DNA from: Defluviitaleaceae bacterium | Lineage (GTDB): Bacteria; Bacillota; Clostridia; Lachnospirales; WQUN01 | NCBI GenBank assembly: GCA_009779755.1 | Contig: WRDO01000006.1 | Span: 1-64,000, forward strand | Length of the DNA stretch: 64,000 nucleotides | Reading direction: 5' to 3' | Part shown: one piece after another, positions 30,913-39,155 of the stretch | Position numbering within the stretch: the first letter of the stretch is position 1 | Layout of the letters: every line of letters begins with the position of its first letter | Translations under genes and position numbers: made by a program | The notes under the pieces: model-generated | Database searches by the model: none | What the model was told of the DNA's origin: nothing | What the model saw: only the letters and a program-made list of their open reading frames with translations

Positions 30913-30960
30913 ATACATTACCGAGGACGTATTTAATCTTCGCCGATTGGGGTAATGTAT
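30913..30960 (+). promoter_or_regulatory. Inverted repeat enclosing the ribosome site of the FliK-like gene
   Basis: ATACATTACC (30913-30922) and GGTAATGTAT (30951-30960) are perfect 10-bp complements with a 28-base loop. The right arm contains the end of the GGGG ribosome site and the first two bases of the start codon at 30959. Folding of the mRNA would hide the start site; as DNA it could be an operator. Confidence 0.5.
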
Positions 30961-33808
30961 GAACCCTTTTAATATTTTCATCAACCGCGATGTATCCGTT
31001 TTCACCGCGGTACATAACCAAAAGCGACCCGAAACGGTATGGCGGGACGGTCAAACCGTTTCGGCCGTGTTGGAAAGCGTAAACAACGGCACAGCATCCT
31101 TACGAACGGAGGATGATGTGCTTTTTACTGCCGACGCATCGGCTATACGGGGACAAGTGGGCGATAATCTGACATTCTCGGTAAAGCGTACGCAACAGGG
31201 ATACGAGCTGACGCAAGTCACCGACCGTAAGCAAAATACCGAAACGCCTGCGCCCCGACGCGGCCGCGCCACAACGATGGACGCCATCAAGGATTTTACG
31301 CAAACAATTGAAAGCATAAAGGAAAATAATGAGCTCCGTTCCGAATTCCAACAGGAACAGAACCTGAAGGTAGCCCGCGCCATCGCGGCGATACGGCGTT
31401 CGCAGGGGTTTATGGCCGCTACCGGCGGGAAGAGCGCGGCAGCCGCCATCGTGGAAAGCGGCTTGGATATATCCAAAGTGAGCTTCGCCGCGATGGATCG
31501 TATCCTGCACCATGTGGATCGCCGCCCCACGCAACCCATGCCCGAAGACGAACGGTTTTTTTCCCGTAAAAACGGCGAAGCCATGGTTTCGGGTTTACGC
31601 AATCACGGCTTGCCCGTTTCCGAACGTAACGTTTCACACATGGAACGCGCGTGGGAACGTTTGCCGGCCAAAATGCCCGATCCCGTCATAACGCACTTGG
31701 CAGCCGATGAAACGGAGCTCACGCTGGACCATATCTATAAATGCAATTATTCCGCCCCGGAAAATAAGGAACCGCAGCCTTACCGCGAAGTCACGGCGGA
31801 TGAATGGAACAAGCATCAAATCGCCATCGAAAAACTATTTATCCATGAGGAAATCCCTTCAACGCAAAAAACGTTTAACGCCGCCCGCTTCCTTTTCGAA
31901 CGGGACCTGCCCATCACGAGGGAAAATATCGAACGGTTTATCTTCCTCCGCGAATTACCCGTAAGCATAAGCGGCGAAAATTTTCCCGAAGCCTTTTTTG
32001 ACCGTGCGGCGGCGTTTATCGTACAGGATAAGCCGTTAGGTACGTTATCCCTGCCGGAAATCGTACGCCTGGCCGAAACACAATTAAAAATAGCCGTACA
32101 AGCGGCGGCACGCCATCAAAGCATAGGCATCGACACCGACGTTATGCGTAATAACCTGCGCCAACTGACACAACGAGAAGCGGAACTTTATTTAAAAATG
32201 GCCGGTACGCAAACAACCGGTACGGAAACGGCAAACCTTACGCTCCCTGCTTCCCGCCTCGTCTCCGTTTTTTCCGTTTTATCCAACCTCCAGCCCCTTA
32301 CCGCAAACGTCCATGCGAACATACTCCATGACCGAACACCCTTCACGATCGAAGGGGTACATGAATCCGTGCTTACGGCGCGCGCGCATTCCGACTACGA
32401 ACAAAACGCGACCGTCCCGCTTGCACGTTACGGCGACTCCTTCGCTCAAGTCAAAACGTTGTTTGCGCCCTTGCTTGACGGTATGGGTATCACGCCGACG
32501 TCGGAAAACGTAAAGGCCGCGTTTATCCTCAGTAAAAATAAAATGGACGTAACGGTCGAAAACCTCCACGCCGTAAAGGAAATCGATGCAAAAATCACTG
32601 CGATTACCCACAAGCTCCACCCCCTCATCGCCGCCAAAATGATTACCGAGGGGTTAAATCCGCTTAACATGCACGCCGATCAATTATTGGCTTATGTAAG
32701 GCAATTCAATTACGACATGGGTGAAAGCGGTACGGAAAAAATCGCGCGCTACATACATGAAATGGATGAAAACCAACAAATCGACGGTGACACACGCAAG
32801 GGCATGATCGCCATCTACCGTATGCTGCACGTCATCCAAAAGGACGGCGCGGCATCCTTGGGGCTTGCAGCGCAGCTCAACACCCCTATTACATTGGGCG
32901 GCTTGTATGACCTCGCGTTAAATCGGAGCACCCGCAAACACGTGGATATAACCGTTGACGACGCGTTGGGGGAATTGGAGCGTATCGTACGCCCCGAAGG
33001 TAATATCCGTGCCGCAATCGAAAACGGCGCCCAACGGCACGCGCTTTCGCACGCGGATATCATCGCTGACGCCTTCACCGACATCGCCCAACCTACCGCT
33101 TTGGAAAAGTTGTTCCAAGCCGCCAACGGCATGGAGCAAGCCCTTGAAGACCTCGCCGCGGAAAAGCCCCACACACCGACAAATCCCGCAACCGCTACCG
33201 AACAAATCCAATCGTTTGTATCAGCCAATCCCGAGGTAATCCACAAGCTGCAGAGCCGAGGTATCTCCACCCGACCGGGGCATATAAAAGCGCTTTCCGA
33301 AGGGGACGATTCCGCTTTGGTTAATCATTTAAATGATATCGAAGATAAGACCGATTGGTTGGATGCCGTCCCCGCATCAAACCTTTTATCTCTTCGTATG
33401 GGCCAATCCCCCGGACATATCCTCGCGCAAATCCGCGCTGCGCTCGGGGATGAAGCCATTGGCCCCGTCCAATCCTTAATCGCAATCACCCACGGGCTCA
33501 ACGGCGACGCCCAAGAGGGTTTTTCCCTTCCCGTTCGCATTAACGGGCGTATCTCCCACTTGCGCATGTATGTATTAAATGACCGTATGCTTACCGCTGA
33601 CGGCGCACGAATCTTTATGTCGCTGGACACGGCATCCCTGGGTAAGGTTTCCGTTTATTTTACATGGAACAAAAACGGTTTGGACGCCACGGTTTCCGCG
33701 CAATCGAACGCCGTATCCGAAGCGCTGGAATCCTATGAGGATGAACTCCATGCACTTGCGGAGGAAAACGGCATACACATTAACGGAGTGAAGTTCATTC
33801 ATGAATAA
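30959..33808 (+). CDS. FliK-like flagellar hook-length-control-type protein, very long
   Basis: 949 residues. Only the C-terminal 140 residues are recognisable: the FliK C-terminal (Flg_hook) pattern LPVRINGRISHLRMYVLND then SLGKVSVYFTWNKNGLDATV and a final helical segment EALESYEDELHALAEENGIHI. The N-terminal 750 residues are hydrophilic, helix-rich and lack a signal peptide. They contain LTLPEIV-like short blocks that I cannot assign; such long versions are annotated in gut Clostridia near flagellin genes. FliK is secreted as a molecular ruler and triggers the switch from hook to filament export. The gene opens the flagellin transcription unit and its stop overlaps the next mini-ORF by 8 bases. 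Confidence 0.65.
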   Translation: MNPFNIFINRDVSVFTAVHNQKRPETVWRDGQTVSAVLESVNNGTASLRTEDDVLFTADASAIRGQVGDNLTFSVKRTQQGYELTQVTDRKQNTETPAPRRGRATTMDAIKDFTQTIESIKENNELRSEFQQEQNLKVARAIAAIRRSQGFMAATGGKSAAAAIVESGLDISKVSFAAMDRILHHVDRRPTQPMPEDERFFSRKNGEAMVSGLRNHGLPVSERNVSHMERAWERLPAKMPDPVITHLAADETELTLDHIYKCNYSAPENKEPQPYREVTADEWNKHQIAIEKLFIHEEIPSTQKTFNAARFLFERDLPITRENIERFIFLRELPVSISGENFPEAFFDRAAAFIVQDKPLGTLSLPEIVRLAETQLKIAVQAAARHQSIGIDTDVMRNNLRQLTQREAELYLKMAGTQTTGTETANLTLPASRLVSVFSVLSNLQPLTANVHANILHDRTPFTIEGVHESVLTARAHSDYEQNATVPLARYGDSFAQVKTLFAPLLDGMGITPTSENVKAAFILSKNKMDVTVENLHAVKEIDAKITAITHKLHPLIAAKMITEGLNPLNMHADQLLAYVRQFNYDMGESGTEKIARYIHEMDENQQIDGDTRKGMIAIYRMLHVIQKDGAASLGLAAQLNTPITLGGLYDLALNRSTRKHVDITVDDALGELERIVRPEGNIRAAIENGAQRHALSHADIIADAFTDIAQPTALEKLFQAANGMEQALEDLAAEKPHTPTNPATATEQIQSFVSANPEVIHKLQSRGISTRPGHIKALSEGDDSALVNHLNDIEDKTDWLDAVPASNLLSLRMGQSPGHILAQIRAALGDEAIGPVQSLIAITHGLNGDAQEGFSLPVRINGRISHLRMYVLNDRMLTADGARIFMSLDTASLGKVSVYFTWNKNGLDATVSAQSNAVSEALESYEDELHALAEENGIHINGVKFIHE

Positions 33809-33929
33809 ACAATCGGATTTTTTCGCGGCGGTCGCCGCGTTAACGCAATTTATCGAGTTGGCGGATAAAAATGTCGCAAAAAAAATTTCCGCATCACAAC
33901 AAAATGCTGCTGATAACGAGGAGGAATAG
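33801..33929 (+). CDS. 42-residue mini-ORF between FliK-like and flagellin genes
   Basis: The ATG lies inside the FliK-like stop region (ATGAATAA), suggesting coupled translation. The product begins MNKQSDFFAAVAALTQFIEL and ends in an acidic DNEEE tail. The DNA encoding that tail is itself the GAGGAGGA ribosome site of flagellin, whose start is 3 bases after this stop. It may be a real small flagellar protein or simply translation through the leader that feeds ribosomes to flagellin. No family recognised. Confidence 0.5.
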   Translation: MNKQSDFFAAVAALTQFIELADKNVAKKISASQQNAADNEEE

Positions 33930-33932
33930 TGA

Positions 33933-36900
33933 ATGGTAATCGGTCATAACGTACCTGCCCTTAAAACCCATTTGAGTATGCGCCGTTCCGACCGCGGCCT
34001 TGCCGCCGCCATGCAACGTTTATCCACGGGTTTCCGTATCAATTCCGCCAAGGACGACGCGGCGGGCCTCGCCATCGCCAACAAGCTGAGCTTCCAAGTC
34101 AACGGGCTCAACCGTGCCAGCGAAAACGCCACCCACGGCATTTCCCTCGTGCAAACCGCCGAAGGCGCGCTCAACGAAATGCATAACATGCTGCAGCGTA
34201 TGCGTGAATTGGCTGTGCAAGCCGCAAACGATACCTATACGGCGGAAGACAGGTCCCTCTTGGACAGGGAAATCGCCCAGCTCATCGACGAAATCCACTT
34301 CATCGCCAACCGTACGGAATTTAACCGTATGCGCATCATCAACGGTGAAGCGGACAGGGTATCGTCGGTAACAAAATCACCCAATCCCCCCGCGTTTATC
34401 CCCAACCCGCCCGTGGGTGAACCCGGACATGTTCCGGCTGCGCCGCCGGCAAATATTTCAATTCCCAATCCGCCCCCCGGTCAGCCCGGCCATGTACCCG
34501 GCTTGCCATGGCCGCAACCTCCCGCTTCCGGCGGTCATCCCGGTCCCACCCCCGAATTTATTGTTATCGCTAACCCAACGGATCCTTCCGATCCCTTTAT
34601 CGGATATTTTCAAGACGGAATCCCCGAGTTTATCGCACTCGATAATATGGATTTATTAACGATGGGGCTCCCATACAGTAACTTGCATATCCCGGGTGGG
34701 ACGCCTCCGCTGTTTATTCTAAACCCGCCCGAAGGCGAACCCGGACACGTAGCGGGTACGCCTCCCCCATTTATCGTCACTTCATGGAACGAAATCCCGA
34801 ACCCCAACGAAGGTGCGCCGGGGCATGTATCGGGTACACCCGTAGGTGATTTGATTCCCAACCCGGCATTCGGTGAACCGGGGCACAGGATGCCCGTGGT
34901 AAAACCGAACCCGGGCGTAGCTTTCGACGGGACGGTTACCGATGCCGCCGCTCCCGGCCATTACGCGGGAACACCCCCGCATATCATCCCCAACCCGCCC
35001 GTGGGTACCGTCGGCCACTATAACCCCGCCGAACCCCCCGCCACGATATGGATACCCAATCCGCTGCCGACGGATCCCCTTTATAGTTCCATACACGATC
35101 CGGGAGCGGCTCCGTCGCATATTATCGTCGCCAATCCGCCCCCCGGGCAGCCCGGCCATGTACCCGGTTTGTTACCGTCGCAAATAACGATACCTACCCC
35201 CGTGTCGCAATTCCCACAGTTGTACGCGCTTTTTAACAATCCCTCAAGCCATCTTTTCGGCCTCCATTTGCAACCCGACATGGTTATGGGGCTTAATTAC
35301 CCCTTGGGTGATCCCAACCGCGTATTGGGCGGTACCCCGCCGGAATATATACCCAACCCACCCGTCGGCGAACCGGGGCATATAAGCGGCGGTACCCCGC
35401 CGGAATACATCCTCGTATGGATGCCCGACCCCGACGGGGAATATACGTGGACATTGTCACTCAATCCGCCCGCAGGCGACCCCGGGCATGTCCCCGCAAA
35501 GCCGCCGAGCATTATTCCCAACCCCCCCGCGGGTAATCCCGGTCACGTAAACAACCCCGATGACCCGGAATATATTTGGCGCGTGAATCCTTCGGCGGGT
35601 ACTCCGTGGCCTCCGGGTGAAGGCCCCGCGTTTATCACGATTGATGTCCCCCACTACGGCGACCCGACAAACGACCTTTTCTTCGACGCATTACGTGCGC
35701 TCGAGTTACGATACCCCGCGCCGGATTTTATTACCGTACCCAACCCGCCTTTCGGCGAGCCCGGCCATGTACCGGCGGCCGCACCCCCCACCATCGAAAT
35801 TCCTAACCCGCCCCCGGGTGCCTACGGGCACGACCCCGGTCCCCCCCCCCCAACCCTCATCCCCAACCCGGACCCGGGCGAACCCGGGCATGTATCCGGT
35901 GCTGCTCCCCCCACAGCGATCCCCAACCCGGATCCGGGCGAACCCGGGCATGTATCCGGTGCTGCTCCCCCCACAACGATCCCCAACCCGCCGTACGGCG
36001 ACCCGGGGCACGTACCCGGTATACCCCCCGCCATGATTACCAATCCGAACGCGGGTGACCCCGGGCACGTACCCGGCATACCGCCCGCTATGATTACCAT
36101 ACCCAACCCGGCGGCAGGGCAACCGGGGCACGTACCCGGCATACCGCCGACGACGATTACCATAACCAACCCACCCGCGGGACAACCGGGGCATGTGCCC
36201 GCCCCGCCGCCGCCCGCGTTAATCGGTATGGCAAACCCCCCGCCCGTCGGTCACCCGCTGAGCAGCTTCCACCAACCCGCGGCAGTGCCTGATTATATCC
36301 AAATACCCAACCCACCCGCAGGACAACCCGGGCATGTTCCCGGAGGCGTACCCCCCACGGAAATCGCGAATCCGCCCGTGGGTGATCCCGGTCATGTTCC
36401 CCCGCCGGAGCATATTATTTGCTGGGACGAATGGACCATACCGGACGAAATCCCCAACCCGGCTCCGGGCGAACCCGGCCACGTGGCGGGGACACCCATG
36501 GGTACATTGGTCCCCAATCCGCCGTCGGGTGCACCGGGACATGTCACCATGCCCGTGCCGGTGGTTATCCTCAACCCCATCGACCCAATGGACCCCAAGC
36601 ATGTACCCGCCCCCACGATAATCCCCAACCCCGCTCCGGGCGAACCCAGCCATGACCCGGGGCACATTGCCCCCGCAAATATATGGATACCCAACCCGCC
36701 GCCGGGGGAAATCGGGCACGTACCCGCCCCCGCCGACCCGCCCGATTTTATTTGGGTACCCAACCCCGCGCCGGATCATCCCGATTACGGCCATTTGCAC
36801 GCATTCTTCGAACCCGATGCCACGATAACGGTTAATAACCCGCCTTACGGTTCCCCCGGTCATGTACTCGGTACGCCGGATGTTATGATAACCATGGATA

Positions 36901-38699
36901 ATCCGCCATCGGATCATCCCGCGCTCGGTCACTTGCATGATCCCGGTATACCGCCTGCCGATATCGCCAACCCGATCTACGGGCAACCCGGACATGTACC
37001 CGGTACGCCGGACGCGACAATCGACAATCCGAACCCGGGCGAACCCGGACATGTATCCGGAGGTATGCCGCCCGCCATAATACCCAACCCCGCATCGGGC
37101 GAACCCGGACACGTGCCCGGCACGCCGATTCCCGATTTCATTGATAACCCTGACCCGCCCGACCTCCTGCACGACCCCGGCGACGGCCCCCCCGATATGA
37201 TCACCATACCCAATCCCCCACCCGACCATCCCCATTTCGGGCATTTAAACGTACCTTCGCTTGCTTATCCCCCGCCGATCATCCAAAACCCGCCGTTCGG
37301 CCAACCGGGGCACGTTCCCGGTGCCTCAGCCATACCCGCGAGGGGTATCGCTTCATTATTATATATGTCGGAGCAGGTACAGCCGGGTTCGCTGCCGTTA
37401 ACGGTGGAAAGCCCGGGAATGCCTGCGATCTTGACCATTGCCTCCACCCCTTCATGGATCGCTCCCACGAACGGTTCGTTCAGGCTCAACGGTAATGCCT
37501 TTAACATACAGGAAGGCGATGACCTGCAAGCCATACTCAACGAAGCCATGAAATACGCCGGGATCGATATGCAGAAAAACCACACCACCGGCGAATACCA
37601 TATGTATACCCGAGTAGCCGGAAGCAGCCAAATGATCAGCTTCCAAGGGAATGCGCAAATCCTTGCGGCTATGGGCATACAAGGTGAAACGCATATAACG
37701 GGTACGGATGCGGTTATATCGGGACCTCGGGTAAACCCGCCCGTATTGGCGCAACCTGCGTCGCTGCCGATTAAAATTCCATCGGTCCCCTTAACCCATG
37801 CAGGTAATCTCACGATAACCGTCAACGGCGTATCCCACTCGAAAGGCTTCGAAATCGGCGACGAATGGGACACCGATGTACTTCCGTGGATTGAGGGTTT
37901 ATCGGGCTTAAGCGTCGTCGGCACCGAAATCGTCTCCGACTTAACCGGTGCGCAGCAATCCATATCCATCGCCGCCGACGATCCCCTGTTGTTGACGCAT
38001 TTCGTTAGCCTATCGGCTCCCTCTACCGTTTTCGGCACGAACGAACCCCTCCAACTGCTTAACATCAACGGCGTTCCGGTACCCGGTACCAATTTGGCGG
38101 TTTCCGTCAACGGTAACCAAATATCCGTACGGGGTACGGGCGGCGAGGACATACGCTTTAACATACAAGCGAGGATTAATCCGAACAATCCGCCCCAAAT
38201 CATATTCGGTGACGTGGGCATGACACCCGTGACAGGCAATACGCTCCCGATGGACTTGGATTTTGGATTCCGTGAATTCGGTCCGTTGCGTTTGCAAATC
38301 GGCCCGAGCCATAACAACGCCATCGATATCCAAATCCCACGCCTTAACGCCGAAACGTTGGGTTTGGTGGAGTATGTGGCGGGGCAACGCCGAAACTTGC
38401 TTTTATACACCACATCCGAAGGCGCGCAATTGGCCATCGGCACGTTGGACAGGGCGATCAACACCGTTTCGGCGGCGCGCGCGCGGCTCGGCGCGTTTCA
38501 AAATCGCTTGGAATCAACCGTACGCAGCTTGGACGTGGCTGCGGAAAATACCGAATCCTCCCGCAGCCGTATAAAAGATACCGACATGGCATACGAATCC
38601 ATCAAATTCGCCCAATATAACGTCATGTTCCAAGCCGCGCAGGCCATGCTGGGGCAAGCCAACCAACGCCCGCAGCAATTGCTGTCGCTGTTGCAATAA
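33933..38699 (+). CDS. Giant flagellin with a ~980-residue proline-rich repeat insert
   Basis: 1588 residues against 250-550 for common flagellins. Residues 1-140 are a canonical D0/D1 N-terminus (RLSTGFRINSAKDDAAGLAIAN, LQRMRELAVQAAND). Residues of about 1500-1588 are the C-terminal D1/D0 (RLGAFQNRLESTVRSLDVAAENTESS, ending QQLLSLLQ). Between them are about 980 residues of NP-x-x-G-x-PGHV-x-G repeats (149-1130) and a further 370 residues with flagellin-IN-like blocks (SFRLNGNAFNIQEGDDLQAIL). Both ends are intact and in one frame, so a working filament subunit is plausible, exported by the flagellar apparatus with the FliS-like protein 12 bases downstream as chaperone. The insert should be surface-exposed in the D2/D3 position. 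Preceded by GAGGAGGA. Confidence 0.92.
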   Translation: MVIGHNVPALKTHLSMRRSDRGLAAAMQRLSTGFRINSAKDDAAGLAIANKLSFQVNGLNRASENATHGISLVQTAEGALNEMHNMLQRMRELAVQAANDTYTAEDRSLLDREIAQLIDEIHFIANRTEFNRMRIINGEADRVSSVTKSPNPPAFIPNPPVGEPGHVPAAPPANISIPNPPPGQPGHVPGLPWPQPPASGGHPGPTPEFIVIANPTDPSDPFIGYFQDGIPEFIALDNMDLLTMGLPYSNLHIPGGTPPLFILNPPEGEPGHVAGTPPPFIVTSWNEIPNPNEGAPGHVSGTPVGDLIPNPAFGEPGHRMPVVKPNPGVAFDGTVTDAAAPGHYAGTPPHIIPNPPVGTVGHYNPAEPPATIWIPNPLPTDPLYSSIHDPGAAPSHIIVANPPPGQPGHVPGLLPSQITIPTPVSQFPQLYALFNNPSSHLFGLHLQPDMVMGLNYPLGDPNRVLGGTPPEYIPNPPVGEPGHISGGTPPEYILVWMPDPDGEYTWTLSLNPPAGDPGHVPAKPPSIIPNPPAGNPGHVNNPDDPEYIWRVNPSAGTPWPPGEGPAFITIDVPHYGDPTNDLFFDALRALELRYPAPDFITVPNPPFGEPGHVPAAAPPTIEIPNPPPGAYGHDPGPPPPTLIPNPDPGEPGHVSGAAPPTAIPNPDPGEPGHVSGAAPPTTIPNPPYGDPGHVPGIPPAMITNPNAGDPGHVPGIPPAMITIPNPAAGQPGHVPGIPPTTITITNPPAGQPGHVPAPPPPALIGMANPPPVGHPLSSFHQPAAVPDYIQIPNPPAGQPGHVPGGVPPTEIANPPVGDPGHVPPPEHIICWDEWTIPDEIPNPAPGEPGHVAGTPMGTLVPNPPSGAPGHVTMPVPVVILNPIDPMDPKHVPAPTIIPNPAPGEPSHDPGHIAPANIWIPNPPPGEIGHVPAPADPPDFIWVPNPAPDHPDYGHLHAFFEPDATITVNNPPYGSPGHVLGTPDVMITMDNPPSDHPALGHLHDPGIPPADIANPIYGQPGHVPGTPDATIDNPNPGEPGHVSGGMPPAIIPNPASGEPGHVPGTPIPDFIDNPDPPDLLHDPGDGPPDMITIPNPPPDHPHFGHLNVPSLAYPPPIIQNPPFGQPGHVPGASAIPARGIASLLYMSEQVQPGSLPLTVESPGMPAILTIASTPSWIAPTNGSFRLNGNAFNIQEGDDLQAILNEAMKYAGIDMQKNHTTGEYHMYTRVAGSSQMISFQGNAQILAAMGIQGETHITGTDAVISGPRVNPPVLAQPASLPIKIPSVPLTHAGNLTITVNGVSHSKGFEIGDEWDTDVLPWIEGLSGLSVVGTEIVSDLTGAQQSISIAADDPLLLTHFVSLSAPSTVFGTNEPLQLLNINGVPVPGTNLAVSVNGNQISVRGTGGEDIRFNIQARINPNNPPQIIFGDVGMTPVTGNTLPMDLDFGFREFGPLRLQIGPSHNNAIDIQIPRLNAETLGLVEYVAGQRRNLLLYTTSEGAQLAIGTLDRAINTVSAARARLGAFQNRLESTVRSLDVAAENTESSRSRIKDTDMAYESIKFAQYNVMFQAAQAMLGQANQRPQQLLSLLQ
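34377..37326 (+). repeat. Degenerate tandem repeat, NP-x-x-G-x-PGHV-x-G, within flagellin
   Basis: I count 27 PGH tripeptides plus several variants (GTVGHY, GAYGHD, GEIGHV, and DHPxxGHLH forms). The commonest unit is about 15-20 residues: I-x-NPPxG(E/Q/D)PGHVPG-x-PP. Units near 35860-36180 are almost identical to each other; others have diverged and carry non-repeat inserts of 10-60 residues. Codon choice in the repeats resembles the rest of the gene. Confidence 0.92.
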
Positions 38700-38711: not shown

Positions 38712-39155
38712 ATGATAAACGCAGATGATTATAAGATAAGGATTTCCAATGCCAATCCTGCGCAGTTGGTCGTAATCAATTTCGAAATGGTTATCGCGTT
38801 CCTGGACGACGGCCAAATCGAAAAAGCAAAGGACGCGCTCAGCCAGCTCATACGCTCGCTCAACTTCGAAATCACCCTCGCGCATGATTTCTATGAAATA
38901 TATAAATATGTAAACGAATTGTTAATCGCCGCGCAATTTTCGAAGGACGACGCGAAAATAAAACAGACACTCAACGAAGCGCGTGAATTGATGGATGTTT
39001 TACTCGTCGGTTGGAAGGATGCGGAAAAGCAGGTAGCCGACCTCCCGCCCGTGGCGGGGATAGCCCCCAAGGTGTACGCGGGGCTTACCTATTCGCGCAG
39101 CGGCCAAGTTGACGAATATGTAGATGAAGGTAATAATAAGGGGTACATGGCATAA
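38712..39155 (+). CDS. fliS: FliS-like flagellin export chaperone
   Basis: 147 residues, all helical. The FliS pattern is recognisable (ANPAQLVVINFEMVIAFLDDGQIEKAKDALSQLIRSLNFEI, in consecutive blocks), while the usual N-terminal Tyr-rich motif is reduced to ADDYKIRIS. FliS binds the disordered C-terminus of flagellin before export. It follows flagellin by 12 bases and is preceded by GGGAGG. Divergence from standard FliS may reflect adaptation to the unusual flagellin. Confidence 0.8.
   Translation: MINADDYKIRISNANPAQLVVINFEMVIAFLDDGQIEKAKDALSQLIRSLNFEITLAHDFYEIYKYVNELLIAAQFSKDDAKIKQTLNEARELMDVLLVGWKDAEKQVADLPPVAGIAPKVYAGLTYSRSGQVDEYVDEGNNKGYMA

Follow-up and report, generated by a model that had tools for sequence, protein, structure and literature searches.

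Giant flagellins with repeat-bearing inserts have been described in Bermanella/Oleibacter and their relatives, where tandem Domain-Extension (DE) regions make up the insert, and giant flagellins have originated convergently in several phyla (PMC6248924). In flagellinolysin, by comparison, the passenger carried in the outer region of the flagellin is a folded zinc protease with a patchy distribution among relatives (PMC5595980). Here we describe a flagellin gene from a 64,000-nucleotide stretch of a Defluviitaleaceae genome, referred to below as the window. Its product resembles the Bermanella/Oleibacter proteins in its canonical D0/D1 ends, its repeat-containing central insert and its length, 1588 aa lying above the >1000 aa by which giant flagellins are defined (PMC6248924). 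The inserts differ, however: DE regions are large duplicated domains, whereas the array described here consists of about 45 proline-rich units of 20 aa, with no sequence relation shown between the two. A thickened filament is a further trait by which giant flagellins are recognised. The array shares with flagellinolysin its position in the outer region and its patchiness, but not the folded protease. It is a further passenger domain on an already-known kind of giant flagellin, carrying a motif that, judged from its sequence, is undescribed in the libraries searched. The reading we favour, and consider reasonably probable, is that of a giant, export-competent flagellin in which a Pro-Gly-His repeat cassette was placed after the D1 helix, duplicated in frame and kept under purifying selection, to be displayed as an extended surface coat.

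Other repeat-bearing flagellins occur in the same bacterial family. Two giant flagellins, L116 (G034:C32) and L106 (G033:C55), contain Gly-rich tandem repeats, and the L116 repeat matches PF18889 (Beta_helix_3). Like the array flagellin, they carry a tandem-repeat passenger between the D1 halves, but the repeat is a different one (Gly 19-24%, Pro 3-4%) and the flagellin belongs to a different paralogue. A 1126-aa flagellin, L104 (G034:C29), has an Ala-rich repetitive stretch of coiled-coil appearance. The proline content of 17 further long flagellins that we surveyed was 3-12%, none of them near that of the array. An earlier note on this DNA had described the inserts of known large flagellins as folded or enzymatic; this holds for the enzymatic inserts (PMC5595980) but is too narrow, given the repeat-bearing giants (PMC6248924) and the Gly-rich beta-helix relatives in the family.

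The gene is a single open frame (33933-38699, + strand) with an ATG start and no internal stop, and the computed mass of its product is 166 kDa. Flagellin_N (PF00669) matched residues 3-139 (E 9e-42, 142.9 bits vs. a cut-off of 26.6) and Flagellin_C (PF00700) residues 1503-1587 (E 1.4e-22, 80.3 bits vs. 23). With both models above cut-off, fliK and fliS genes adjoining, and orthologues that are themselves flagellins in the tree, the protein is a member of the bacterial flagellins. The features of the locus are as follows:

30959..33808, + strand: FliK-like hook-length control protein with DUF6240 (PF19753, E 1.2e-41; PF02120, E 4e-9)
33801..33929, + strand: 42-aa ORF between fliK and the flagellin gene; its start overlaps the fliK stop (ATGAATAA) and its sequence begins MNKQSDFFAAVAALTQFIE
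33933..34361, + strand: flagellin N-terminal D0/D1, residues 1-143, ending in NRMRIINGEADRV (PF00669; the G004 orthologue is 90% identical at the aa level)
34362..37325, + strand: proline-rich repeats in an array of about 45 units, each ~20 aa, spanning residues 144-1131 (absent in about 20 orthologues, 2 units in G025, about 37 in G004)
35799..36201, + strand: stretch in which the array repeats are most regular and most recently duplicated (tandem copies of 60-63 bp with 84-89% matches)
37326..38432, + strand: outer (D2-like) flagellin domain, residues 1132-1500 (common to array-free orthologues; 71% aa identity to G004 over the alignable part)
38433..38699, + strand: flagellin C-terminal D1/D0 (PF00700, residues 1503-1587)
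38712..39155, + strand: FliS-like flagellin export chaperone (PF02561, 40.4 bits vs. a cut-off of 26.7)

Much of this agrees with the earlier note, which had given exactly this frame, an estimate of ~165 kDa, canonical D0/D1 at both ends, a repeat span of ~980 residues (~988 here, from residue ~144 to 1131) and 27 PGH tripeptides, a number that we recovered on recounting. Its FliS-like and FliK-like neighbours are likewise both above their Pfam cut-offs, the FliK match scoring 36.5 bits vs. 29.8. What it had overlooked is the outer domain of ~370 residues between the array and Flagellin_C, for which no match was found in Pfam. In the window protein this domain has about 100 additional residues after ...GTDAVISGP that are missing in G004.

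The genes at and around the flagellin locus encode ParA, ParB, the FliK-like protein with DUF6240, the 42-aa ORF, the flagellin, FliS, a tRNA-synthetase and a YvyF-like flagellar-region protein. The synthetase is of class I (W/Y-type) and was taken as trpS. The 42-aa ORF (33801-33929) had no Pfam match; similar ORFs precede the flagellin gene in L078, L079 and L047. Sigma-28-like promoter patterns occurred twice in the window (1.5 expected), in neither case at the flagellin gene.

The window genome (G000; 3.1 Mb, 98% complete, 91 contigs) also contains the flagellar export gene FlhA, the cap gene FliD and genes for three other flagellins, namely two giants (1718 and 1046 aa) and a minimal one (272 aa). 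The array flagellin is therefore not the sole candidate for the filament and need not be its main protein; from the gene content, it probably shares a mixed filament with other flagellins, in which it may be a minor or rarely expressed component. The central parts of the two other giants (L008:4386-9542, - strand, 1718 aa; L007:215-3355, - strand, 1046 aa) gave no Pfam match. The FliD cap is itself a giant of 1623 aa (L130:1080-5951, - strand, contig C29), with FliD_N and FliD_C domains and a long middle in which stretches of ~135 aa visibly repeat. Ranked by length among 28 genomes of the family, the FliD frames of the three array-carrying genomes come 1, 2 and 4. The correlation between FliD and flagellin length is weak (Spearman 0.42-0.47) and loses significance without G000 and G004.

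The array consists of about 45 degenerate units with the consensus IPNPPxGxPGHVPGxPPxxI. The units are irregular, 19-26 aa long with some longer spacers, and the distance from one unit start to the next is most often 20 or 21. NPxxGxxGH occurs 28 times in the array, compared to 0.01 on average, and never more than 1, in shuffles of the array's own residues; the whole flagellin has 48 NP dipeptides. None of the 29 core units deviates at N, P, G or H, residues that are written with mixed synonymous codons, and the mean DNA identity among these units is 63%. As the pattern that picked the core units itself required N, P and H, the independent signal lies in the shuffle test, the synonymous variation and the retention between species. 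Two residues ahead of NP, an Ile or Val is nearly invariant (30 of 33 units). A block of several units at residues ~256-420 aligns again at ~805-990, suggesting that the array grew partly through block duplication.

In composition the array is rich in proline (26%), glycine (11%) and histidine (5%), with a 2P+G value of 0.64. It shares its high Pro and Gly content with elastin-like and PRP-like disordered proteins, an analogy of composition only; to our knowledge, neither the strict Asn-Pro-Gly-His frame nor the Ile/Val position is a feature of elastins or PRPs. Lys and Arg are nearly absent (9 of 988 residues, and 6 of 754 in the G004 array, vs. 11% in neighbouring proteins), so the array would be expected to resist trypsin-like cleavage. 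Histidine accounts for 53 of the 988 residues, is invariant in the core and is 85% conserved between species, which would fit a multivalent metal-binding surface. We consider this improbable, however, since there is only about one His per unit, almost no Cys and no known metal motif, and binding would depend on pairing between units.

The insert belongs to no recognised family, as the earlier note had supposed: the array had no match in Pfam or PHROGs, and the best PDB sequence match had an E value of 0.31. The flagellinolysin model NF033876 reached only 42 bits vs. a cut-off of 205; it matched only the flagellin ends, its best stretch (1451-1519) lying outside the array, which speaks against an HExxH metallopeptidase insert. 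An AlphaFold model of residues 600-788 from a 9-row alignment had a mean pLDDT of 66 and showed one short strand per unit, whereas residues 600-880, modelled from a 6-row alignment, gave a mean pLDDT of 40 and almost no structure. Foldseek against PDB and viral fold libraries and VIA found no credible relative: the single PDB match, to calnexin (E 5.5, TM 0.09), was rejected, and VIA gave no Z >= 2.

One possibility suggested by the first model is that the repeats stack as a proline-rich solenoid, with one short beta strand per coil of ~20 aa, to form a rigid rod or platform. The invariant spacing of N, P, G and H, the Ile/Val ahead of NP and the strands lying 18-21 residues apart in central units with pLDDT mostly of 80-92 would all be explained in this way. 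With a whole-segment pTM of only 0.34, the collapse of confidence in the longer overlapping segment, the variable unit length and long spacers, and the lack of a PDB or viral fold match, we nevertheless regard the solenoid as a tentative alternative that is less likely than an extended coat. The motif spacing is too strict for a featureless brush, but the two AlphaFold pictures conflict. Two conformations are candidates for the array: a stacked repeat, and an extended chain that forms local turns. The polyproline brush of the earlier note, taken as a featureless chain, is only one option.

The repeat was present in only three of the 96 genomes searched, G000, G004 and G025. The G004 orthologue, from the same genus as G000, is encoded at the same locus and has 1244 aa, of which 754 form a colinear array of about 37 units (65% identity). 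The G025 orthologue, from another genus of the family, has 612 aa and just two units, at exactly the insertion point. The order FliK, flagellin, FliS, trpS, YvyF-like gene is common to all three. In about 20 orthologues at this locus that lack the insert, ...NGEADRV (or similar) is followed by a short linker and then the outer domain. Because these orthologues and the array-carrying proteins coincide again from there on, the array is an insert placed at the junction between D1 and the outer domain. A tree of D0/D1 placed G000 and G004 as sisters, adjoining the insert-free G001 and G003, and G025 as sister to the insert-free G011, which requires at least two gains or losses. Judging from these sequences, the array has been patchily gained or lost among orthologues.

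Searches with the repeat unit in 392 genomes of the order recovered only G000, G004 and G025, and a profile search of 391 genomes of the class found none besides G000. Among 398 genomes of the phylum there was one weak match (G735, E 7e-4, 34% identity), which contains a stop and which we regard as due to chance. No unit was found in the phages, plasmids or viral contigs searched, and an origin from any of the three was set aside. The rarity of the array refers to the genomes sampled. Since repeats assemble poorly and the genome is in 91 contigs, a mis-joined frame or other assembly artefact, a possibility raised in the earlier note, was also considered. It is hardly credible: G004 is an independent MAG with the same architecture at the same locus and a colinear array, the units are diverged and the frame stays open over 4.8 kb.

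Comparison of the window and G004 arrays provided an indication of how the repeats are maintained. The alignment score of 2354 is well above that of 300 shuffles of unit order (1572 +/- 57, maximum 1755), showing that unit order is conserved between the two species. Nei-Gojobori estimates gave a dN/dS of 0.25 for the array (dS 1.15), compared to 0.23 for the outer domain and 0.09-0.15 for D0/D1. P, N and H were retained at 84-87% of positions vs. 18-33% for D, E and A; however, shuffled unit orders still reach 59% identity (vs. 65% for the real one), so that part of this retention is due to the aligner pairing like with like. The best reading of these comparisons is that the array is kept under purifying selection. 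Phase variation through repeat slippage, as previously proposed, is not supported by the data: the units are in frame, ~60 bp long and mostly diverged (63% DNA identity), and with their order conserved across species the array appears to be old and not flickering. A near-neutral repeat expansion, tolerated on the outer side of the filament, would account for the patchy presence, the copy numbers of 0, 2, ~37 and ~45 and the local recent duplications. We think this improbable in view of the dN/dS, the selective retention of motif residues, the colinearity between species and the depletion of Lys and Arg.

We therefore return to the surface coat as the favoured reading. A Pro-Gly-His repeat cassette would have entered directly after the N-terminal D1 helix and grown as single units of ~20 aa and blocks of several units were duplicated in frame, after which purifying selection would have maintained it. 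The flagellin would be exported unfolded with the help of FliS and would co-polymerise with the other flagellins of G000, the array being turned outward to cover the filament with an extended coat that is multivalent and resists proteases.

What such a coat might do is suggested by the habitat, as documented for the congeners of G000: the sister genomes come from the guts of litter- and soil-feeding higher termites. G004 matches WQZS01000018.1, from the Defluviitaleaceae MAG Lab288P1bin109; Lab288 stands for the soil feeder Labiotermes labralis, and the Defluviitaleaceae MAGs come mostly from gut section P1, described as highly alkaline (PMC7024585). The food of litter- and soil-feeding termites contains much humic and polyphenolic material (PMC8784593). 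The most likely role of the coat is in contact with the gut surroundings, either adhesion to, or protection from, their particulate, polyphenol-rich, highly alkaline and proteolytic contents. Binding of metal, pectin, mucin, polyphenol or polysaccharide, or immune shielding, are guesses, with candidate ligands named on compositional arguments.

Mammalian salivary proline-rich proteins and histatins bind polyphenols. By analogy, the array could bind polyphenols or humics and so anchor or shield the filament in the gut of a soil or litter feeder. The P, G and H content of the array and the humic, polyphenolic food of the hosts of the sister MAGs (PMC8784593) are in keeping with this idea, but the analogy is one of composition, no sequence relation to the salivary proteins was found, and we judge it unlikely. 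A more elaborate version is a long shot: an undescribed proline-rich repeat fold, present in thousands of copies per filament, would form an alkali- and protease-resistant coat binding polyphenolic or humic material, and the FliD cap, enlarged and carrying repeats, would fit the bulk of the subunits.

Going back to the extended coat as such, a single orthologous flagellin site at which related species have 0, 2, ~37 or ~45 copies constitutes a natural series, in which one can ask what a filament gains from, or tolerates as, an outer coat. The low Lys/Arg and high Pro content lead to direct predictions, namely trypsin resistance and an extended shape. If the repeats bind gut particles, the flagella of these uncultured symbionts would be organelles of adhesion or protection.
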